Shown here one piece after another: positions 32,375 to 61,869 of a stretch of DNA of 64,000 nt. The translations under genes were made by a program, and so were the position numbers. The notes under the pieces were generated by a model. That model was given only the letters and a program-made list of their open reading frames with translations, made no database searches and had not been told where the DNA came from. Source of the DNA: Dolomedes plantarius (Eukaryota > Arthropoda > Arachnida > Araneae > Dolomedidae). The stretch covers positions 70,736,488 through 70,800,487 of the forward strand of contig OU015503.1 in assembly GCA_907164885.2 (NCBI GenBank), in the 5' to 3' direction. Within the stretch, counting starts at the first letter, position 1, and the number at the start of each line of letters is the position of its first letter.

Positions 32375-35183
32375 GGGGACTCGGTACCAAAAAATTTTTT
32401 TTCTTAAATAATGCCTATATTAAAATTCTGAAATCATATTTAAGTAAGTCTGAATGATACAAAATAATAAAACATTTCAAATTGTTAAAATTTTTATAAT
32501 TTTTTATAAAAATTTGAATTTTTTTAAAAAAATTCAATAATTTTCAAATTCCTACTTCTTTTTTAATTTTTATATTTGGAACTAGATTTTTTTACCACTT
32601 GTTCATCATACCTAACTACATAAAACTTCTGAGCAGATTTTAAATAATATAAGTAGATCAGGGTAAAAAAAAATAAAATGTGGTTGCATATGGAAAAAAC
32701 GATAAAAAATAGTACTTTTTTAGATTTATAAATTTTTTAAAAAAGTTTTTTCATAGATATCAAAAAACCACTCAGACGTTTTGATACAGTAAGTATCAAG
32801 ATTAATCAAAAAAAAAATTAGACCATTTGCATTAGAATTGTAGAAGCCTTAGCATTTCGAAGATGGGGAGAATTTGAAAAATCACAAACTGAGAAAAATG
32901 AGTTTAAAGATTTCATTTATAGAAAAACCATATTAAATATAATCTTACTTCATGAAAACTTTTTTGCCAACAATAATAGGATATATTATTTGTTTTCACA
33001 ACAAAAAATAAAAGCTAGAAACCTTAATTTAAAAAATTGAGATGCATATATAAGCTGTTATCCACTCGTTTACTGCAGTAAAATTATCTTGAAATAGACA
33101 AATGCTGTAAATGTACAAAAATTAAGGCATAATATATACTACTTACTTGTTATATATTTATAATAAGATGCACTACTGTCATAAATCCTAAATAATAATA
33201 AACATAAACTATTAATAGCTTAAGATATGAATTTTGAAACCACCAAATTTTAATATTTCAATTTCTAAATTTAATGAACAAGGGTCAATCACTTTCCAAT
33301 AGATTTAAAAGTAGCCAGCACTATAAGTAATTCCTTCTCTCTTTTTTTCTACAATTTCTCTTTTAGCTTTTGCATTTTTTACAATTTTTCTTACATATTG
33401 ATATTTAGATGTAGGTCGTCTTTCTCGAAAAGATTTGTTTTCGCATATCTAACATTTTTGCAAGTCTTTATGTATGGCACCCTGACTTTATTCCTAGTAT
33501 TTTATGAACTTCTTTTAATGTAAAACTCACACCTTTTTTATGTATTCGCAAATTGCTTGTCTAACAGAACGATCTACACATTTTTTATACACAAATATGT
33601 CTTTGGTACACCTAGACCAAATCATATTATGCAAACTTTCATTTGCATTTTGCGTTTTGTAACTAATGCACTTTTCTAAAAGTTCATTTGATGCTAGTCG
33701 TTGGTAAATAGGAAGTATCTTTGGTAAAAATTCTTCTTTAATCGGTGTTCCAACATTTAACTTATGATTTCCTGGTTTTACACCTTTCGAAACTGCAGAC
33801 TGATAGAAACACCATGAATCAGCCCCACTTGGACATTTGTGGTGCTGTGGTTTTTGGTCAGTTGAAATACTGTGGAACAATGTAGCATATATTGCAGTTT
33901 TCATATTATTTACATCACCCTTGTTCTGTAAAATTGCTCTTTGATAGTATTTTGTGAGCTTTTTTATTGTCGTTTCCTTAAGACTACCATGCCCTTTGCC
34001 TCCTAAATTGACACCACGAACACGCCAATCTTTAACAGCATTTCGCAAAGCTGTTCCTAATCTCTTACTTACGTGATTTACACATTCTTCCTTTTTAATT
34101 TCTACAGAAATATCACAAACAGGAAACAGAAATATCACAAATAGCTGAAGTTTTTGAACCTGATCTATAAGCTTCTTTCACTTCCTTATGAACTTGTTCG
34201 AACATATTTTTTGATAAAGTACAAGTTGCAGAGTTAAGCTTTTCAACACACCTCATATAAGTTCGTGAAGAAAATGGGGCCATATTCATTGACATACAAA
34301 ATTTTTCAATAACAGTATATCCTTTCCCAATATTTGAAAAGGCACTGTCAACTTGAATATTTAAATTGGAACATTCTTGTTTCCTTTTAGTGTCTGATAA
34401 TACATTGGTGCACTCTAAACAAACAAGTTTTAAATTTCTGTAAAAACCAACTGCACTGCTACAGTCTAATTTGAGAGATATGTTTCCACAATCTACACAT
34501 TTCACATTAGAAAACAAATTTCACAGTTCAACAGTATTTACAAAAATATATTCACCATTAATATTTTCTGTTTCTATTTGATTACAAGATTGAAAATTCT
34601 GCAATCGAGCACAACTGTTTGATAACATGCTTGTGTTCATGCAACGTGATTCTGCACTGCTATCACTTATTATGTTACCTTCGGTTTTTTTCCATCTTTT
34701 ATTATTATTTTCTGTTGCAAGAACAGATTTTCTTTTCCTTCTAGGCATGATTTCAGAAGAACACACAAAATAAATAAAAATGAACGAAGCTTCCACTTCT
34801 CTAAACGAACTCGAATTATAAAACGCAATCCATGAAAAAAAAACAGTGTTCAGCACTCGTAAATGTAAACAAGTTGGCGCTACGGTTGTGGATAATCTAA
34901 CTTTGAAAGCAGCATCGATATAGAAATAATTATTTTTACAATAAACCAGGGAGACGATCAGATCTCAGCTGTAAACATTGAAGCAGCTGGGATTTAAAGG
35001 GACATTTAAAGGGAAAATGAAAGATATGGGTTACGAAAATTAACCATAACTCCTTAAATATTTATCAGAATGACACGAAATTTGGGTGGAATCTTCTAGA
35101 CATGTGAAGGAATAATTTAGAATAAAAATATGAAATTCGTCAATTTGGTCATTTTTCGACAAAATGAGATGTACCGAGTCCCC
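32375..35183 (-). mobile_element. TTAA-flanked Mutator-domain (Kolobok-like?) transposon, internally deleted
   Basis: Including the flanking TTAA (32371-32374 and 35184-35187), CTTTAAGGGGACTCGGTAC at the left is matched perfectly, inverted, at the right. The minus strand carries a broken transposase of the arthropod Mutator-like domain family. The remainder is AT-rich untranslated sequence. True Mutator elements make 8-11 bp target duplications. The TTAA flanks point instead to the Kolobok or piggyBac mode, and Kolobok is my preferred but unproven reading. Confidence 0.75.
33527..34748 (-). pseudogene. Mutator-like transposase with the catalytic core deleted
   Basis: The start at 34748 is MPRRKRKSVLATENNNKRW, a basic N-terminus. 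An in-frame TGA at 34521-34523 splits it. The frame resumes with a CxxC pair (VKCVDCG) and SAFSNIGKGYTVIEKFCMSM. At about 34110-34140 a 16-bp word (TTTGTGATATTTCTGT, minus) is duplicated and shifts the frame. It joins AICDISVS directly to VEIKKEECVNHVSKRLGTAL. In family members, as I recall them, a DGTW...D core lies between these points. The rest (GADSWCFYQSAVSKG, NANESLHNMIWSRC) is well kept. It cannot be active. Confidence 0.8.
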
Positions 35184-43079: not shown

Positions 43080-43465
43080 AACATAATTTTTAAACATATA
43101 AAAAATATGATTAATAATTATAAGATAAAAAGAAATTTTATATGCAATGTTTTTAAATTTTCTGTTGAAACATATAAACTTGACAATTCAATGTATTAAT
43201 AAATACTTTTTAAAAATTTTTTTGATGAATTATCTCATCAACTTGAAATGAATTTAATTCTGCTTAAAGATGGCTAAAAGTATTAAAATAATGCATAAAC
43301 ATCGTGTTCTGGGATATTCTAAAAGTTTCAAATTTCTACCTAGTCGGGAAGTTAGTTAAAAATCGATTGCAAGATTTGTACGGGACAAACACACAAACAC
43401 ACAAACAAACAAACAAGAAAGCGAGTTAATAAAAACATGGAAAAATATTAAGCATATTAATAAAG
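43080..43465 (-). repeat. Dispersed repeat, copy 1 (with CACAAA-rich simple sequence)
   Basis: In inverted orientation it matches 52280-52520 and 53259-53395: shared words are TTCATCAAAAAAATTTTT, AAATTTTCTGTTGAAACATA, AGATGGCTAAAAGTATTAAA, CGGGAAGTTAGTTAAAAA, ACACACAAAC and GCGAGTTAATAAAAACATG. The superfamily is unknown. It is uninterrupted here, and Tc1 copy 2 begins at its end. Confidence 0.65.
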
Positions 43466-43467
43466 TT

Positions 43468-44663
43468 TTTCTTGTGGTTTTTTCAAAAAAAAACGATCAA
43501 TTATGCCTCGTCGAAAACAGCGATTATCTTTTGATCAAGTATCCGAGTTCGACAGAGGAAGGATAGTGGCCTACCGAGATTGTGTAATATCTTTCATTGA
43601 AATCGGTAGTCGTGTTGGACGGAACCAAACAACTGTAATGCGGATATGTGATCGTTGGATGCAGGAGGGTACGACGGACCGGCGTGTTCGATCGCATCCA
43701 CCTCAGCGCACCACTTCACGTGATGACAGGCAAATTGTGCGCATGGCAGTGACGGATCGCTCAGTCACATCACGAACCATAGCACAGCACATGCAGTCTG
43801 TAACGCATCATCCAGTGTCTGCGCGTACCATTCGACGCTGTTTACAGCAGAGTGGTCTGTCCGCAAGACGTCCATTGCTTTGTCTACCCTTGACGCAGAA
43901 TCACAGACATCTCCTCCGCCAATGGTGCGATGACAGAAGGATGTGGACGGCAGAATGGAATGAAATTGTCTTTACTGACGAGTCACGCTTCTGTCTGCAA
44001 CACCACGATGGTCGCATTGGAGTCTGGAGACACCGTGAAGAGAGGATGCTGAACAGCTGCGTTATGCACCGCCACACTGGTCCTGCACCGGGTATTATGG
44101 TATGGGGCGGAAGTACGCACCTCTAGTACGCATTGCCGGTACTTTAAACAGCCAGCGCTACATCTCCGAGGTGTTGGAGCCAGTTGTCCTTCCTTACCTT
44201 CAGGGCTTGCCCACAGCCATATTTCAACAGGATAATGCGCGACCACACGTGGCACGCATTGTCCAACCGTTCTTCGTCAATCGCCAGATGGAATTGCTTC
44301 CCTGGCCGCCTCGCTCTCCGGATCTTTCGCCGATAGAAAACATGTGGTCCATGGTTGCTCTACGATTGACCCAGATTCCATCCCCAGCTGCCACAGCAGA
44401 TCAACTTTGGCAACGTGTGGAAGCTGCTTGGTCTACTGTACCTCAAGAACTCATCCAAAGTCTCTTTGAATCAATGCCGAGGCGTGTGGCAGCGGTGATC
44501 TCCAACATTGGCGGCTACTCTGGCTAATGATTTTGGCAGGAACCACACTTCACAGAAGTCTATAAATTTAATCATTTGATACTTGGTCAACATGTTATCT
44601 ACAAAATAAATTTTGTTGTGATATCTCTTGTCTTTCTTGGTGTTGCAATTTGGGTGGCCAGCA

Positions 44664-44705: not shown

Positions 44706-46220
44706 TCACTTCCAAAAGTTAAGCACGGAGAGGAAAATTTTTATTTCCGTAAGCCAATCTGAATTAAAGAAGATGAAATTTGCTGCAAAGGTAGAAGGAA
44801 GTATGCAAATATGTTAGGTAGCCAATCAAGGTTTCGCGTCAAGAAATGTGCAAAACAGGCAGTCTTATAAGAAGCCGGCATTGTGAAGGGTTACAGGAGT
44901 TGCATGTAAGTGCTGATGAAAGGTGTTTAGAACATTCGTACCATTTGTTTTCAAGCTAGACGTGTTTCTATGGCTTCCAGACGACGAATGGAATATTCTG
45001 AGCGCTGTCGGGCTCTCGTACGCATTGAAGTAGTACACTCTATCACAGATGTTGCTCTTTTCTTCAGCGTTCCTCATTCCGTCATTTCACGATTATGGAA
45101 ACAATTTCAAACCAGCCAAACAGTTGTCCGAAGACCTGTAGCCGGTCTTCCAAGGGTTACGACCCCCTCGGAAGATCGATATATTGCTGTTGTAGCCAAG
45201 CGGAATCGAAGATCGACCTCCACACGTGTGACATCTATGGTTGCAGCGGCCATTGCTAAGACGTTATCTGCCACTACTGTTCGTCGAAGGCTACACATGA
45301 ATGATCTATAAGCCTGGGTACCACGAGTTTGTGTTCCGTTATCCGTCCAATCCAGAGGGGCACGATTAAAGTGGTGCCGCCAGCATGTGAATTGGACTGT
45401 GTCTGATTGGGCCAAAGTTATGTTCACAGATGAGTCCAGATTTCCCCTACAACCCGATGATAAGCGTGTAATGGTCAGGAGGGAACAAAGCACACGCAAT
45501 TGGCCAGAGAACATCACCAAACATCACTCATTCCGCGAGGGAAGCATAATGGTCTGGGCAGGGATTTCTTTGGGATATTGCACCAACGTGCACATCTACA
45601 GGCGAGGTTCTGTGACGGCTGTACGGTATCGAGATGAAGTCCTAGATCCCACTGTGAAACTGTACGCTGCAGCAGTTGGTCCTTCTTTCGTTTTAATGGA
45701 CGATAATGCCCGTCCCCATAGAACTTCCATCGTTGACGACTTTCTGGAGAGTGAGGGGATTGCGCGTATGGAGTATCCGGCTTACTCGCCGGACCTTAAT
45801 CCATTTGAAATTCTTTCGGATGCCCTCGGCCATGCTGTCTGTAGACGTTTACCACCTCCAGCCACTCTCAGAGATTTAGAAATTGCCCTACAGGAAGAAT
45901 GGCGATTACTGAACTCTCCGGTAGTTGATCACCTCGTAAAAAGCATGATCTCCCGCTGTACACTTTTTATGAAGGTGAGGGGTGCTCACATACCCTATTA
46001 ATGTCATTTTTTGTCGTTTGCTTTGCATTTAAACATCATTTTGTTAATGACGCAAATATGACGTCATTTTATAATTTATGAAAATTCAATATTTTTCAAT
46101 CTCTGTATGTAATTCTTTGTTTTCTTTCATGAATAAGCATAGAGCTACTTACTTGCAGTATTTCATGTCAATCAAAACAGTACTTGTCCATTTTTTCACA
46201 TTAACTTTTGGAAGTGAGTG
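44703..46220 (+). mobile_element. Tc1-like element, second family (Y), nearly intact
   Basis: TA at 44701-44702 and 46221-46222 flanks CACTCACTTCCAAAAGTTAA and its perfect inverted copy at the right end. Length 1518 bp. One gene fills the centre. Confidence 0.92.
44970..46001 (+). pseudogene. Tc1-like transposase, family Y, one premature stop
   Basis: 44970-45311 and 45387-46001 are in the same frame, 343 codons in all, interrupted by a single TAA at 45309-45311 (NDL*AWVP). Other Tc1 proteins have Y or Q here, so one base change explains it. The N-terminal HTH includes VALFFSVPHSVISRLWKQFQ and ATTVRRRLHM. Catalytic motifs are complete: VMFTDESRF (first Asp), LMDDNARPHR (second Asp) and YSPDLNPFEIL (Glu). 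The end is KVRGAHIPY. This is the least decayed transposase in the window, and the short open frame on the opposite strand at 45107-45520 is its shadow. Confidence 0.9.
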
Positions 46221-48075: not shown

Positions 48076-49448
48076 CACTGCTGGCCACTGTAAATGCAAC
48101 ACCCTGAAGGAAATATGCAAATAACATGAAATTTCCAACATGCATTAGCGGAGGTGAGATATGCAAATGATTAGAATTTCAGCGCAGACGCACATCACGC
48201 GCGCCTGTGGCGCCACTTCAAAGCGCTATTTAAGGCTTGGAGATTTCGTCGATTTCAAGTTCGGCAATTGTGTTTTTCTTGTTTTTTCAAAAAAACGATC
48301 AATTTTGCCTCGTCGAAAACAGCGATCATCTTTTGATCAAGTATCCGAGTTCGACAGAGGAAGGATAGTGGCTTACCGAGATTGTGGATTATCTTTCAGG
48401 GAAATAGGTAGTCGTGTTGGACGAAACCAAACAACTGTAATGCGGATATGTGATCGTTGGATGCAGGAGGGTACGACAGACCGGCGTGTTCGATCGCATC
48501 CACCTCAGAGCACCACTTCACGTGATGACAGGCAAATTGTGCGCATGGCAGTGACGGATCGCTCAGTCACATTACGAACCATAGCACAGCACATGCAGTC
48601 TGTAACGCATCATCCAGTGTCTGCGCGTACCATTCGACGCCGTTTACAGCAGAGTGGTCTGTCCGCAATACGTCCATTGCTTTGTCTACCCTCGACGCAG
48701 AACCACAGACGTCTCCGCCGCCAATCTTGCGATGACAGAAGGATGTGGAAGGCAGAATGGAATGAAATTGTCTTTACTGGCGAGTCACGCATCCGTCTGC
48801 AGCACCACGATGGTCGCATTCGAGTCTGGAGACACCGTGAAGAGAGGATGCTGAAGATCTGCGTTATGCACCGCCATACTGGTCCTCCACCGGGTATTAT
48901 GGTATGGGGCGGTATTGGATATCACTCTCGCAAACCTCTAGTACGCATTGCCGGTACTTTAAACAGCCAGCGCTACATCTCCGAGGTGTTGGAGCCAGTT
49001 GTCCTTCCTTACCTTCAGGGTTTGCCCACAGCCATATTTCAACAGGATAATGCTCGACCACACGTGGCACGCATTGTCCAACGGTTCTTCGTCAATCGCC
49101 AGATTGAATTGCTTCCCTGGCCGCCTCGCTCTCCGGATCTTTCGCCGATAGAAAACATGTGGTCCATGGTTGCTCTACGATTGACCTAGATTCCAACCCC
49201 AGCTGCCACAACAGATAAACTTTGGCAACCTGTGGAAGCTGCTTGGTCTGGCTGCTTGGTCGAGGCGTGAGGCAGCGGTGAACTCCAACAATGGCGGCTA
49301 ATCTGGCTACTGATTTTGGCAGGAACCACACTTCATAGAAGTCTATAAATTTAATCATTTGATACTTGATCAAATGTTATCTACAAAATAAATTTTGTTG
49401 TGATATCTCTTGTCTTTCTTGGTGTTGCAATTTGGGTGGCCAGCAGTG
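48076..49448 (+). mobile_element. Tc1-like element, family X copy 3
   Basis: TA at 48074-48075 and 49449-49450. The left end CACTGCTGGCCACTGTAAAT and the inverted right end CACTGCTGGCCACCCAAATT both continue into GCAACACC. Length 1373 bp, with a deletion near the transposase C-terminus. Confidence 0.92.
48305..49310 (+). pseudogene. Tc1-like transposase, family X copy 3 (inactive)
   Basis: The start codon is TTG at 48305 where copy 2 has ATG. A longer upstream reading from 48161 runs through the 5' untranslated region and is incidental. The HTH region is intact. The first catalytic motif reads FTGESR, so the Asp has become Gly. Unlike copies 1 and 2 it keeps GGIGYHSRKPLVRIAG with no frameshift. 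FQQDNARPH and SPIENMW follow. CAG to TAG at 49187 ends the frame at ALRLT, and about 45 bp are deleted near 49250. It keeps the ancestral reading frame of the family in the middle. Confidence 0.9.

Positions 49449-56135: not shown

Positions 56136-56172
<37 letters not shown>
56133..56172. repeat. (TA)n tract
   Basis: 40 bp of TA dinucleotide directly before the long-TIR element. Confidence 0.95.
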
Positions 56173-56173
<1 letters not shown>

Positions 56174-56175
<2 letters not shown>

Positions 56176-57036
56176 GTGGCGTATGCAAGGGGGGGGGGGT
56201 TGATGGGGGTTATAACCCACCCCCATTGGTTTTGATTACATATATTATTTAATTAGGTTTACACTTTGCATTGATTGCTCAAAACTACTCTTTCATAATA
56301 ATAGTCCAGTCAAATTAGTCCAAAATGGCGGCGAATCATGCATTAAATGAAACGATTGAGATTTTTTCAGGAATGTGTAGGGGTTGGTCCCCTGAACAAC
56401 GCCTAATAAAGTCCCCTCGATTTCAGGCGCCGGGGGGGGGGGGGGTCCAAAGGTCACTTTTTTCAGTTTTCGGCGTTTATATCGAAAATGGTGCATCGCA
56501 CAGAAAATTGTCAAATGCAAAAATAAAAGCTTATAAAATTCCCTTCTAAATGGTATATCCATGTTTGTACTCAAGTGTTACCGTTATCGAGATATGAGCC
56601 ATTGAATATGAAAAGTTTTCAAAATAAGTGGTAACGGTTCAGCTATCTCGTCAAACTTCCTCTTCTAACTCTTTCCCCTTCCATTTCTCAGAAAACTCGT
56701 GATAGAGAAAGTTGTAGAGCGAAAGATTTTCTTCAAAAATGTATATAGTTATGCTAATTTATCTTCAGGTAAATAGTTAGAGGGTTTTTAAGTTTAGGGG
56801 TACTTTTCAACATTTTGCTTGTAAAATGCTCGTCACTCAAGTTTCGTTTCCATGGTCTGTAACTCTCTTAATCACTTTGTATGGTGTTTAATTAGATACG
56901 TATAATATTCATAACCCATATAAATAATAAATTATGTATACCTGTACGCATAATGTATATCTCATAATATACAGAAGAACACTTGTAGTACAAAGGAGGA
57001 AGTAAGAAAACAAACCAAACTGTATAAAAGTTGTTC
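56174..57036 (+). repeat. Left long terminal inverted repeat of the 4.6-kb element
   Basis: Pairs with 59537-60787. Contains two poly-G runs (56191-56200, 56432-56445) and about 100 bp (56205-56305) not matched in the right arm. The open frames in this arm (for example 56325-56549) recur in the right arm and are non-coding. Confidence 0.8.
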
Positions 57037-57192
57037 ATATAATCAAAAAATGTTTATCAAAAGTAGGTTTAAACAACAGTTACTTACATTAAATATATTA
57101 TATACAATTTATTTCATCAACTGCTTTCCTATATATTAAAAGCCGTCAATCTGATACTTCGGAAAAAGTTTCAAACAAGTCAGTCTTCACTA

Positions 57193-59400
57193 TCATTTTA
57201 GCTTCTGTAGAATGTCCGAATTTTCACGAACTGATTTCCCACAAAGGTGGCATCCCACTATAATGCTACGATCAAAGTCACTAGGCTCCTTTGACTTACT
57301 CATCGTCTCACAAACGCATAAATATGACCTGGCAGGTTCAGGTTCAGGTATTTCAACTTGTCGGAGCTCCAAGGTCTGTAGTAGAACTTTATCTCCAATA
57401 ATATGACCTGACAAACCACTACCAATACTTTTATAGCTTTCGGTTACGCATCAAATTACGTCACCTGCTAGATCCACTTCCTTAGGGGGGGGGGTGTCCG
57501 AATACTTTTGGCCAGATAATTTATAACGTATTATTGAATATTAATGAATTATATAAATTATTAAATTTACTTAATGGGGTCAGTACGAGCAAAGAAAAAT
57601 GAAAGGTACCTGTGGTGATTGAGATCATGTTCATTTGGCGGGGCCTGGAACATGAGCAGGAACATTTGTTCCTCAGCTCCATAAATGTCTCCTGGTGAAG
57701 ATTTGGAGTTATAAAACACTTTGGCGATGTTTGTTGTTTCATTGGAATACCGCTGGAAACATTGTACTATTACTGCTTTGCTTTTACCATAAATCGCTGA
57801 CGTAGTGTCACATCCTGAGAAACTATGGATGAAGAGAATGTACTGACTGAATGATAAGACCTGAAGATGTTGTGAAGAGTAGAGCCTGTATTCTGTGTTG
57901 CCCCGTCCGGTCTTCATAAAAAACACATTCGTGTCTTGCAGGGTGAGTGCCACAAGTAAGACGAGCAGGTCTTACCCATCTACTATCACCACATTTGAAT
58001 GAGAAGTGTTTTGCCACCCACCTCTGACAATACTGCAATCAGCATCTCCTTTGGCTATAGTAGACTGTATACCTCTTGCACCTAAGGCCTGAACCAACAT
58101 AGTAATGAGCTTGGTTTTGTTCCTTTCATTAGAAAGGAAGTTTTCCTGATGAACAGTAGCCACCATGTTCTTATTGAAGTCAATATCCACTGATGTTTTA
58201 CTTGATGCTCTCCGATGTTGTTCGTCTCTTTCCGTGGAGTTCGTGTGTCTTCATAACCATCAAAAACCACAGCTCAACTGCTGCCGTAATGGTTGATTAT
58301 GTACGATACATATTGATCGCAGATGGAGGCGAAGGTGGTGTTGGTGTTCCACTTTACTCTATGAAGCAGGAAGCCGCCATCGATTACCGTGAAACTGTTC
58401 TTCACATTGATCAGTTGATTACATTTTCGGAAAGCATCATACAGTGCTGACTTTTTGATTTATCTCATTATCCCCTCGGCTAATAGAGACATAGGGTATG
58501 GGGCTAACTCGTACGTTAGCAACTCCTCTACATCCCCTTCTTTTTTCTTGGTGATCAGAGTTCTTTGAAATATCATCAGAGGCTCTACCACCACTACCTC
58601 ATCATTAACTTTGATCATATTGCTCATCGCAGCTAAAGGAACGACTGAGTCCTTCGTGGATTGTTTCACTTCTGAGAAATTCATTCCAAACAAAAGTGCT
58701 CATTGTGCGGGTTCCAAGGACTGCTGGACTTCCAAGGACTCCAAGGAAGCAGTTGACGTTACTTGTTCCAATTACTCCTGCTGAAAGTTATATCAAACAA
58801 TTACGTTCAGCAAAAGGCGGGTGATCAGCCAACCCTTGAGTAAGCTTCCTTCTGTCTAGATCATCTGTGGTTATGCGTGATGCTCGAAACTCAACATGTT
58901 GTTCTCCTCTTGCAGTATGGACGCCACAAAACATCTCAAGTGGACTACATATTGTTGTAGCTGTGCTAGCTCCCCCAACCCATTTCGCCAACACTGAATC
59001 ACTAAAGCCTCGTCCACGTGTTAATTCTCCTTCACTCTTCCTGTCACACATGAGTGTCACCTCAATTGCCATGTCAGACCACACACCAGCCATTGGTGTT
59101 CCAGTTCTGTTGACAGTGAAGTATCCACGATTTATAAAATTCTGTTTAAGTTGAAGGTGGCGAGTTGTTAGTCTCAGCATGTGTTGTACATATAGGTGAG
59201 TACACTTTCCATAATGAAAATGCCCGCTGGCATGGAAGTAAGGTATCATCAGTTGGGCACATGTCATATGATCTTCCCAGTTACCAGTGTGCTGTGCTGC
59301 AATGAATTTTTTCATCAACACCACCATTTCAAAGTACTGGACTCACAAAGCTGCTGTTGCCCCTTTACCTTTGAGACGTGACAATTCATTGCTCAAATTC
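57193..59400 (-). pseudogene. Decayed HSFSGCDTTSA-family protein gene
   Basis: Minus-strand pieces in order. 59327-58788 has TGNWEDHMTCAQLMIPYFHA, NRTGTPMAGVWSDMAIE and LTRGRGFSDSVLAKWVGG. 58693-58460 has MFGMNFSEVKQSTKDSVVPL and LTYELAPYPMSLL. About 58290-58200 has VVFDGYEDTRTPRKE. 58190-57972 has FLSNERNKTKLITMLVQALG and AKGDADCSIV. Near 57960 comes a DLLVLL-like stretch. 57953-57567 has LTLQDTNVFFMKTGRGNTEY and FIHSFSGCDTTSAIYGKSKA. 57414-57193 has HLCGKSV. This order matches, from memory, a large metazoan family of unknown function that is highly repeated in arthropods and cnidarians. Several frameshifts and stops make it dead. Confidence 0.65.
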
Positions 59401-59536
59401 CACTGAATGCTGGCAAGGAAGGTATTTGTGGAAATGTGTTGTGGAGTAATTTCTTCTGAGGTCTGAAGTAACTGAACTACTTATTCTTTTTCATATGGTG
59501 TGATATATAAGTTTTCCAAAATGATCTGAGCTAAAG

Positions 59537-60787
59537 TGACACTTTTATACATTTTTGTTTGTTTTCTTACTTCCTCCTTTGTACTACATGTCTTCTTCTG
59601 TATATTATGAGATATACATTATACGTACAGGTATACATAATTTATTATTTATATGGGTTATGAATACTGTACGTATCTAATTAAACAGAATGCAAAGTGA
59701 TTAAGAGAGTTACAGACCTTGGAAACGAAACTTAAGTGACCAGCATTTTACTAACAAAATGTTGAAAAGTACCCCAAAACTTCAAAACCCTCTAACTATT
59801 TACCTGGTGAAGGTAAATTAGCATAACTATATGCATTTTTGAAGGAAATCTTTCGCTCTACAACTTTCTCGAACACGAGTTTTCTGAGAAACGGAAGGGG
59901 AAAGAGTTAGAAGAGGAAGTTTGACGACATACCTGAACCGCTACCACTTTTATTTAAAAATGTTCATATTCAATGGTTCATATCTCGAAAACGGTAACAC
60001 TTGGGTAGAAATTGTAGGGTTCGCGTGTTGCTCAGATGCAAATTTCTGGTAGCAGCGTTGTACATGCCAGCCGAAGTGAGTTCGGCGCAGGTGTTTGATC
60101 TATTTAAAGGGCACACGCTGAGTTGGCAGAAGCCCAAGACTGGAGTAGCGATACGAGAGAGAGCCGAGGCAAGCTTGATGGAAGGTGATAGCGGTGTTTA
60201 ACTGATAGAGCGTGTATTGGTATTTAGCCGAGGTAGCCGCACGACTTCGAGAATTAGCTCAGAGCCGAGGTTTACGGGTATTATTAGTGAATGCATACTC
60301 TGCCTGAAGGATTCATTGCGACCTTTAGTTTCTTAGTACCGCGGGTTGCGGTACTGTTGTGCATTATTTTGGAAGCCCCAAGTCTGTCTATGTTAGTCTG
60401 CCTCTACGTAGAGAATAAAGGAGTTATTCTGAAGTTATCCCTCGTACTTTATAATGTGCTTGGACCGTTAGAGATAAAAAAAAAGGAATCACACAAATTA
60501 GGAAGAACCACATAAAATGGAATTTTATAAGCTTTAATTTTTGGATTTGACAATTTTCTGTGCGATGCACCGTTTTTGAGATAAACGCTAAAAACTGAAA
60601 AAAGTGACCTTTTGACCACCCCACCCCCGCGGCGCCTCAAATCGAGGGGACTTTATTAGGCGTTTTTCAGGGAACCAACCCCTACACATTCCTGAAAAAA
60701 TCTCAATCCCTTCATTTAATGCGAAATGAAAACCTAATTTGACTGGACTATAACATCCCCCTTTGAAAATTTCTGCGTACGCTGCTG
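59537..60787 (-). repeat. Right long terminal inverted repeat of the 4.6-kb element (interrupted)
   Basis: Inverted partner of 56174-57036, split by the 60014-60500 insertion. The minus-strand open frames at 60424-60824 mirror those of the left arm. Confidence 0.8.
60014..60500. mobile_element. Insertion in the right arm; LTR-like, unclassified
   Basis: The left arm has no counterpart to this segment: homology stops after AACACTTGGGTAGAAA and resumes near ATGGAATTTTATAAGC. The segment starts TGTAGGGTTCGCGTG, is GC-richer than its host, and has AATAAAGGAGTTATTCTG near 60413. That would suit an LTR poly(A) region. The ends and target duplication are not clear. Confidence 0.35.
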
Positions 60788-61869
60788 TATATATGGGAGA
60801 GTGTGTGCGTATGTGTGTGAACATGTGTGGATTCCGATTTGGCTTCCAGCGTACTCACTGATTATGTCATACGGAGAAGTCCATAATGAAACCAGAGGAT
60901 AGTTTCATGGCTTTTGGATACGCTCGAGTTGCCTATCTTTGCATAAGTTAATCCTCGAAAGAGAATGCGGGTTTATAATCAGCCTTCACGTAGCAAAAAT
61001 TTGACCGTAGCGCCTCAAACCAAACCAAAGAGAATGCGTTCATGCAACTTCGGTCTAAGCTTTTAAGTTTTTCCAACAAAAGTCTATCAGAATAATTTTC
61101 ATCAGTGTTACGTTTAGTAGAAAACAATATTAAAAACAAGCAAATTCACGTTTTTCGTTTTCTTGACCTAGAATACGTCTTTCTAATGAGTCGCATATGG
61201 GGTGCCAATTTGGAGTTGGGGGTTTAAAAGAATTAATAGTCATTTATAATAGCTCCAAGTCAGCAACTAATAAACGTACAATAACAAGTGATATATACTT
61301 CTACAAAACGAAAGTTCCCAAATATCAAACAGATTTAGTGCGCATGCGCATGAATTACTGGAATTGCCCAAATTACGTCAATATGTGACCTTCAGGCGCC
61401 AGTAACGTACGAACTTCGTATCGTAGCTACATAAGTGACGTTTCAAAAGATCGGTTACAATTTCTGAATGTTAGCCTTTAGGTTTGTGACCCCTACGTGA
61501 CTTTGTCGGTAGATATAATGAAACGTATATCTACAATCAAAACCAGGCGAAAAGGATAAGAATATAGACAGCTTAGTCTGGTAAATTCAAAAAGGTGCCA
61601 CTCACCGTTTCTGAACGTATGGAAAAGCATGCGTAAAGTACATGGACAGTACATCAGTAGCACTACATAAGGCAATCTGAGGGGAAAACCCCAACCACAA
61701 GACGTATGCTAAGTTCAAACACACGCCTGCCTCCAAGACGCTGGCCACAGCCATTTTTTTTCAACTACGAAGAAGGTCAACATTTTCCGTGGTTCGGTAC
61801 TCATTGTAATATCTCGCTGCTCCACGTCAATAATTTTACCGAAATTTAAATGTATTAAAAGTAAGTATT
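60788..61869. other. Unassigned sequence
   Basis: A short TG-rich stretch at 60795-60830, then about 1 kb without repeat ends or motif-bearing frames. Confidence 0.4.

Follow-up and report, generated by a model that had tools for sequence, protein, structure and literature searches.

P elements are among the transposons that produce 8-bp target duplications. AcademX is said to be a lineage of the Academ superfamily set out by Kojima in 2020. AcademX transposons with a nuclease are already known: in the available sections of PMC10045372, AcademX is described with a transposon-encoded nuclease and 3–4-bp duplications, and AcademH with duplications of 9–10 bp, a difference in length that is tied there to nuclease versus helicase. 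Academ elements are given a mean length of 5565 bp in bivalves in the excerpted text of PMC10294476, and hAT elements are described, in that of PMC3942097, by short terminal repeats and 8-bp duplications.

The window analysed here is a 64,000-nt stretch of the Dolomedes plantarius genome (contig OU015503.1, positions 70,736,488 to 70,800,487). Toward its right end, two elements lie one within the other, as follows (window coordinates):

56166..56173, no strand: left copy of the outer 8-bp target duplication (TATATATG)
56174..56301, forward strand: hAT-like outer miniature element, left 128 bp, tip CAGTGGCGTA; joined directly to its right-hand portion in empty copies
56299..56301, no strand: left copy of the inner 3-bp target duplication, TAA; identical in 20/20 fetched copies
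56302..57036, forward strand: left arm of the inner Academ-type element, tip TAGTCCAGTC
59541..60750, forward strand: right arm of the inner Academ-type element, interrupted, tip ending GACTGGACTA
60013..60506, no strand: extra sequence within the right arm, edges approximate; missing from six other copies compared
60751..60753, no strand: right copy of the inner 3-bp target duplication, TAA; present in 18/18 fetched copies having the right inner tip
60751..60787, forward strand: right 37 bp, comprising outer miniature element and the duplicated TAA (3 bp), tip TACGCTGCTG
60788..60795, no strand: right copy of the outer 8-bp target duplication (TATATATG)

The long inverted arms of the original prediction are present and pair in two main blocks, 56564-57031 against 59541-60011 (92% over 471 bp) and 56340-56554 against 60507-60722 (91% over 216 bp), and the predicted outer tips are exact, with CAGTGGCGTA starting at 56174 and TACGCTGCTG ending at 60787. 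The arms had been ascribed to one element; they are indeed inverted, but 128 bp at the left extremity and 37 bp at the right one belong to a second element. The inner tips, TAGTCCAGTC at 56302 and GACTGGACTA ending at 60750 (inner element tip sequence, TAGTCCAGTCAAATT), have TAA on either side, and the outer flanks, counted with a single TAA, make up a miniature element of 162 bp. The left outer duplication is weak evidence when taken alone, because it lies inside an AT repeat. The extra sequence in the right arm begins TGTAGGG and substitutes for ~20 bp, so that a clean insertion was rejected; it is perhaps LTR-derived.

Remnants of other transposases occur elsewhere in the window: a Mutator-like one at 33527-34177 (reverse strand; Pfam PF20700, E 1.2e-13), and Tc1/mariner-type ones at 43464-44126 and 48158-49189 (both forward; Pfam HTH_Tnp_Tc3_2 in both, DDE_3 in the second) and, recognised by eye only, at 45312-46001 (forward).

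The outer ends also occur without cargo. Used as a query, the 162-bp sequence gave 42 match rows, of which 36 continue across the empty junction, at 85–92% identity; of the other six, four break off close to or exactly at the junction and two come from a single copy that has been split. In the 20 empty copies fetched from these 36, the tips are CAGTGGCGTA/TACGCTGCTG or differ from these by no more than two changes, and at least 7 of 8 duplicated bases are found in 15 (exact in 7), with fewer in the remaining 5. One empty outer element (C11:1571200-1571535) is split by another, its outer pieces overlapping at query bases 38-45, an 8-bp duplication.

The filled form is repeated across the genome. 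The arms go well past what chance would produce: the whole left arm is present at full length at 40/40 places (93–100%; the best 40 matches, window included, arm matches being ranked by likeness to the window). Gene sequence lies between the arms in all 20 copies fetched from the 39 non-window places, and forms one near-complete block in 16; a second inverted arm was detected in 19. The inner junction is identical on the left in 20/20 and on the right in 18/18 fetched copies, and the base adjoining it is A in 20/20 composites and G in 20/20 empties. When the inner arm alone was the query, its 40 best places comprised 37 from the left-arm list and three new ones, also composites (one without an outer tip); the outer-inner junction is present at at least 43 places, window included. 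An inner element standing alone with the same arms was not found: these 40 matches, the best in a ranking by likeness to the window, are all composites. Nor was an autonomous parent found among the genome matches listed. Copies of the arms without cargo, which the original prediction had named as evidence against itself, thus exist for the outer ends and, among the 40 best matches, not for the inner arms. The left-arm, protein, 162-bp and inner-arm queries returned 2955, 10658, 1839 and 2250 first-look candidates, figures that are not copy numbers.

Once L009 and L016 were set aside, 18 composites had a right tip that could be measured; at the outer ends, all 18 show an exact 8-bp duplication, none an exact 3-bp one and two an exact 4-bp one. 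L025 and L028 count as a single locus that was duplicated, and AT repeats surround L012, L023 and the window, which leaves 15 independent, informative sites. Composite length is ~4.1 kb in 12 of the 18 measured copies.

These 8-bp duplications, with a terminal inverted repeat of ~14 bp (two mismatches) that falls inside the 10–25 bp criterion for hAT, suggest a hAT-like outer element, and its CAG-G tips are, we assume, hAT-like too. A hAT-type transposase is the candidate mover of the outer ends. The mover might instead be a P-type or other transposase that makes 8-bp duplications, as a duplication of this length, shared by P elements, does not by itself identify a superfamily. We consider this unlikely: the combination of a short terminal repeat with 8-bp duplications agrees with the hAT description in the excerpted text of PMC3942097.

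The inner element has relatives that carry ends of their own. A protein search of the genome listed 49 rows; seven relatives, picked from the longest or cleanest copies, were examined, and both ends were found in six, each with its own inverted arms, TAGYCC tips and a 3–4-bp duplication:

L029: arms ~350-360 bp, tip TAGCCCAGTAGC, duplication ATA
L030: arms 406 bp, tip TAGTCCAGTC, duplication CTA
L031: arms 406 bp, tip TAGTCCAGTC, duplication GAT
L032: arms ~140 bp, tip TAGTCCGGTC, duplication GTCT
Relative on C2: arms ~345 bp, tip TAGCCCAGTAG, duplication CTC
Relative on C14: arms ~400 bp, tip TAGTCCAGTC, duplication TGA

The seventh, on C1, has a left tip only within the stretch fetched. The proposal that this gene family travels as a DNA transposon is borne out by these six of seven relatives. 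L029 to L032 are 5.86–6.07 kb long, with open frames of 1319, 1641, 1641 and 1490 codons, respectively (stop to stop); the longer relatives of the protein are mostly ~1450–1550 aa. L030 and L031, at separate sites, show 30 differences in 4923 bases, a near-identity that shows recent movement of the relatives' family (dN 0.0057 and dS 0.0076, from changes too few to reveal selection).

Six places from the protein search (C8:145946437, C159:5876, C10:124601648, C5:37710612, C5:75306954, and C1:77110205) have a match range of 209-951 and frames of 770-771 codons, with one stop in five of them; they are perhaps a second group of shortened copies of this gene that has been amplified. P0200, a protein recorded for the rust fungus Austropuccinia psidii, has 44% identity to P0016, reflecting either contamination or horizontal transfer. 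Viral contigs gave 122 pattern-matching stretches, none confirmed as a relative.

Structure models of the relatives' protein contain a P-element-fold DDE domain and a FEN1/EXO1/XPG-type nuclease, with conserved active-site columns. The family's protein combines a DDE transposase with a fused FEN1/XPG-type nuclease, a type that acts in mobilisation, as the original prediction had suggested. VIA-align on the top 1000 Foldseek chains yielded the transposase ranking for the transposase half; Foldseek scores for this half included nothing below 0.001 (best 0.035, a PadR regulator), and a PDB sequence search with one relative gave no match. Pfam matches to XPG_I and DUF6589 are mostly under their cut-offs. 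DUF6589 (PF20231) covers the transposase core, passing its cut-off in two of the six relatives examined, and because of this coverage may be an Academ-type transposase domain; a literature search for a link between DUF6589 and a transposase gave no match.

The combination recalls AcademX. The relatives have an XPG-type nuclease in the transposon protein and a DDE transposase, and the 3–4-bp duplication occurs in 6/6 relatives with both ends and as the inner TAA in the window, giving a candidate function to a family originally described as having none assigned. AcademH was rejected: Pfam scans of 15 relatives, including partial ones, found no helicase family, and the duplications are of 3–4 bp rather than 9–10 bp. 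The gene family could also be a new superfamily distinct from AcademX, given that Pfam covers the core of the protein just as DUF6589, above cut-off in two of six scanned, and that the likeness to AcademX is one of description. This seems improbable, as a nuclease-encoding transposon with 3–4-bp duplications is AcademX as reported in the available sections of PMC10045372, and the 5.86–6.07 kb of the relatives is close to the bivalve Academ mean in the excerpted PMC10294476.

The copy of the gene within the window is a remnant, with the following features:

57588..59570, reverse strand: decayed gene, approximately residues 680-1335 of a ~1480-aa protein, frameshifted and with stops
59061..59087, reverse strand: GVWSDMAIE, bearing the third (Glu) position of the DDE set
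57954..57971, reverse strand: DLLVLL, nuclease motif, preceded by a stop and a damaged GEDxD motif
57795..57827, reverse strand: HSFSGCDTTSA, FEN1/XPG-type domain motif with conserved Asp

Between ~59543 and 57588, on the minus strand, three pieces resemble the relatives, with frame changes and stops; they retain the rear of the DDE domain and the greater part of the FEN1-type nuclease (residues mapped by alignment to three relatives of 1465–1508 aa). The three motifs on which the decayed gene had been recognised are all present; the decay extends further, however, to the absence of residues 1-~680, including the first two proposed catalytic Asp (~435 and ~600), and to a final ~145 residues that are unrecognisable. 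The third catalytic position, Glu (~842), is retained. Scans of the broken gene pieces gave only two Pfam matches, both under cut-off, and no NCBIfam match.

In an alignment of 17 copies, with the window among them and L025 and L028 counted separately, four stops recur in 16, 13, 17, and 16 copies, so that the amplified source was broken before it spread. Substitutions from the commonest letter number 147, 167, and 145 by codon phase, and the mean likeness of the 17 copies is 96.5%; the even phases and this likeness match the expectation of a single burst and neutral decay. The gene within the composite is a neutral passenger.

The original prediction, of a single transposon with its own CAGTGGCGTA ends mobilised by its cargo gene, is accordingly very improbable. 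Gene sequence does lie inside all 20 fetched copies, but the CAGTGGCGTA tips are those of a different, miniature element, also found without cargo, and it is through these outer ends, with their 8-bp duplications (18/18), that the composite has spread; the inner tips have their own TAA duplication, the six relatives with both ends have TAGYCC tips and 3–4-bp duplications, and the shared stops and even phases are those of a dead passenger. Multiplication of the composites through segmental duplication has a still smaller, almost negligible probability: L025 and L028 (C13, ~22 kb apart) show no difference in their aligned interior or in the flanks displayed, from local duplication or an assembly artefact, but the remaining measured copies have distinct flanks and an 8-bp duplication each, which refutes it as a general cause for those outside AT repeats.

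Very probably, the locus is an AcademX-type deletion derivative nested in a 162-bp hAT-like miniature element, amplified as a composite via the outer ends with the gene as a neutral passenger. The derivative would have inserted into one copy of the miniature element, with TAA as its 3-bp duplication, and the composite would then have been moved as a unit in trans via its outer ends, producing 8-bp duplications, with the gene, already broken in the amplified source, riding as a neutral passenger. In intact relatives, the protein is the element's own transposase: the P-element-fold DDE domain would cut and join the ends, and the fused FEN1/EXO1/XPG-type nuclease, by its fold a 5′-flap or 5′-end enzyme, would probably cut or trim the 5′ strand. 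This sharing of tasks between the two domains is a proposal, and the fused nuclease may shorten a P-type 8-bp stagger. More tentatively, AcademX transposase might be a P-element-fold DDE enzyme with a fused FEN1-type nuclease that performs the second-strand cut or trim, hence 3–4 rather than 8 bp, with the 162-bp element amplifying a cargo ~24 times larger than itself; we put this at somewhat below even chances.

A nested composite with a 162-bp carrier is not described in the literature found, a comparison that the original Academ papers lie outside. As far as the searches show, this composite and the reading of the protein as P-element fold plus EXO1 fold are new. Together they offer a mechanism and a likely name for a large animal protein family that appears in databases as ‘Tesmin/TSO1-like CXC’ or unnamed. 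A fused transposase-nuclease with open-frame, near-identical natural copies in one genome is also a testable system for the setting of duplication length. Arms around a gene are no proof of self-mobility, because a dead transposon has here multiplied by riding in another.

Set beside known systems, the family is like AcademX, compared by description from the available text, in its encoded nuclease, 3–4-bp duplications, and similar element length; unlike AcademX, the window copy is a dead one in which the first ~46% of the protein is missing, and it was moved by foreign ends with 8-bp duplications. The nuclease resembles the FEN1/EXO1/XPG family in its model fold and in conserved acidic residues in the expected order, but is fused behind a transposase, unlike the host repair proteins of that family. 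P elements make 8-bp duplications, against 3–4 bp in 6/6 own-arm relatives, and, unlike P-element transposase, these relatives carry the fused FEN1/XPG-type nuclease. The outer element is like hAT-type MITEs in its 8-bp duplications, short terminal inverted repeats, noncoding sequence, and many copies; unlike them, it took on ~3.9 kb of foreign cargo and still spread.
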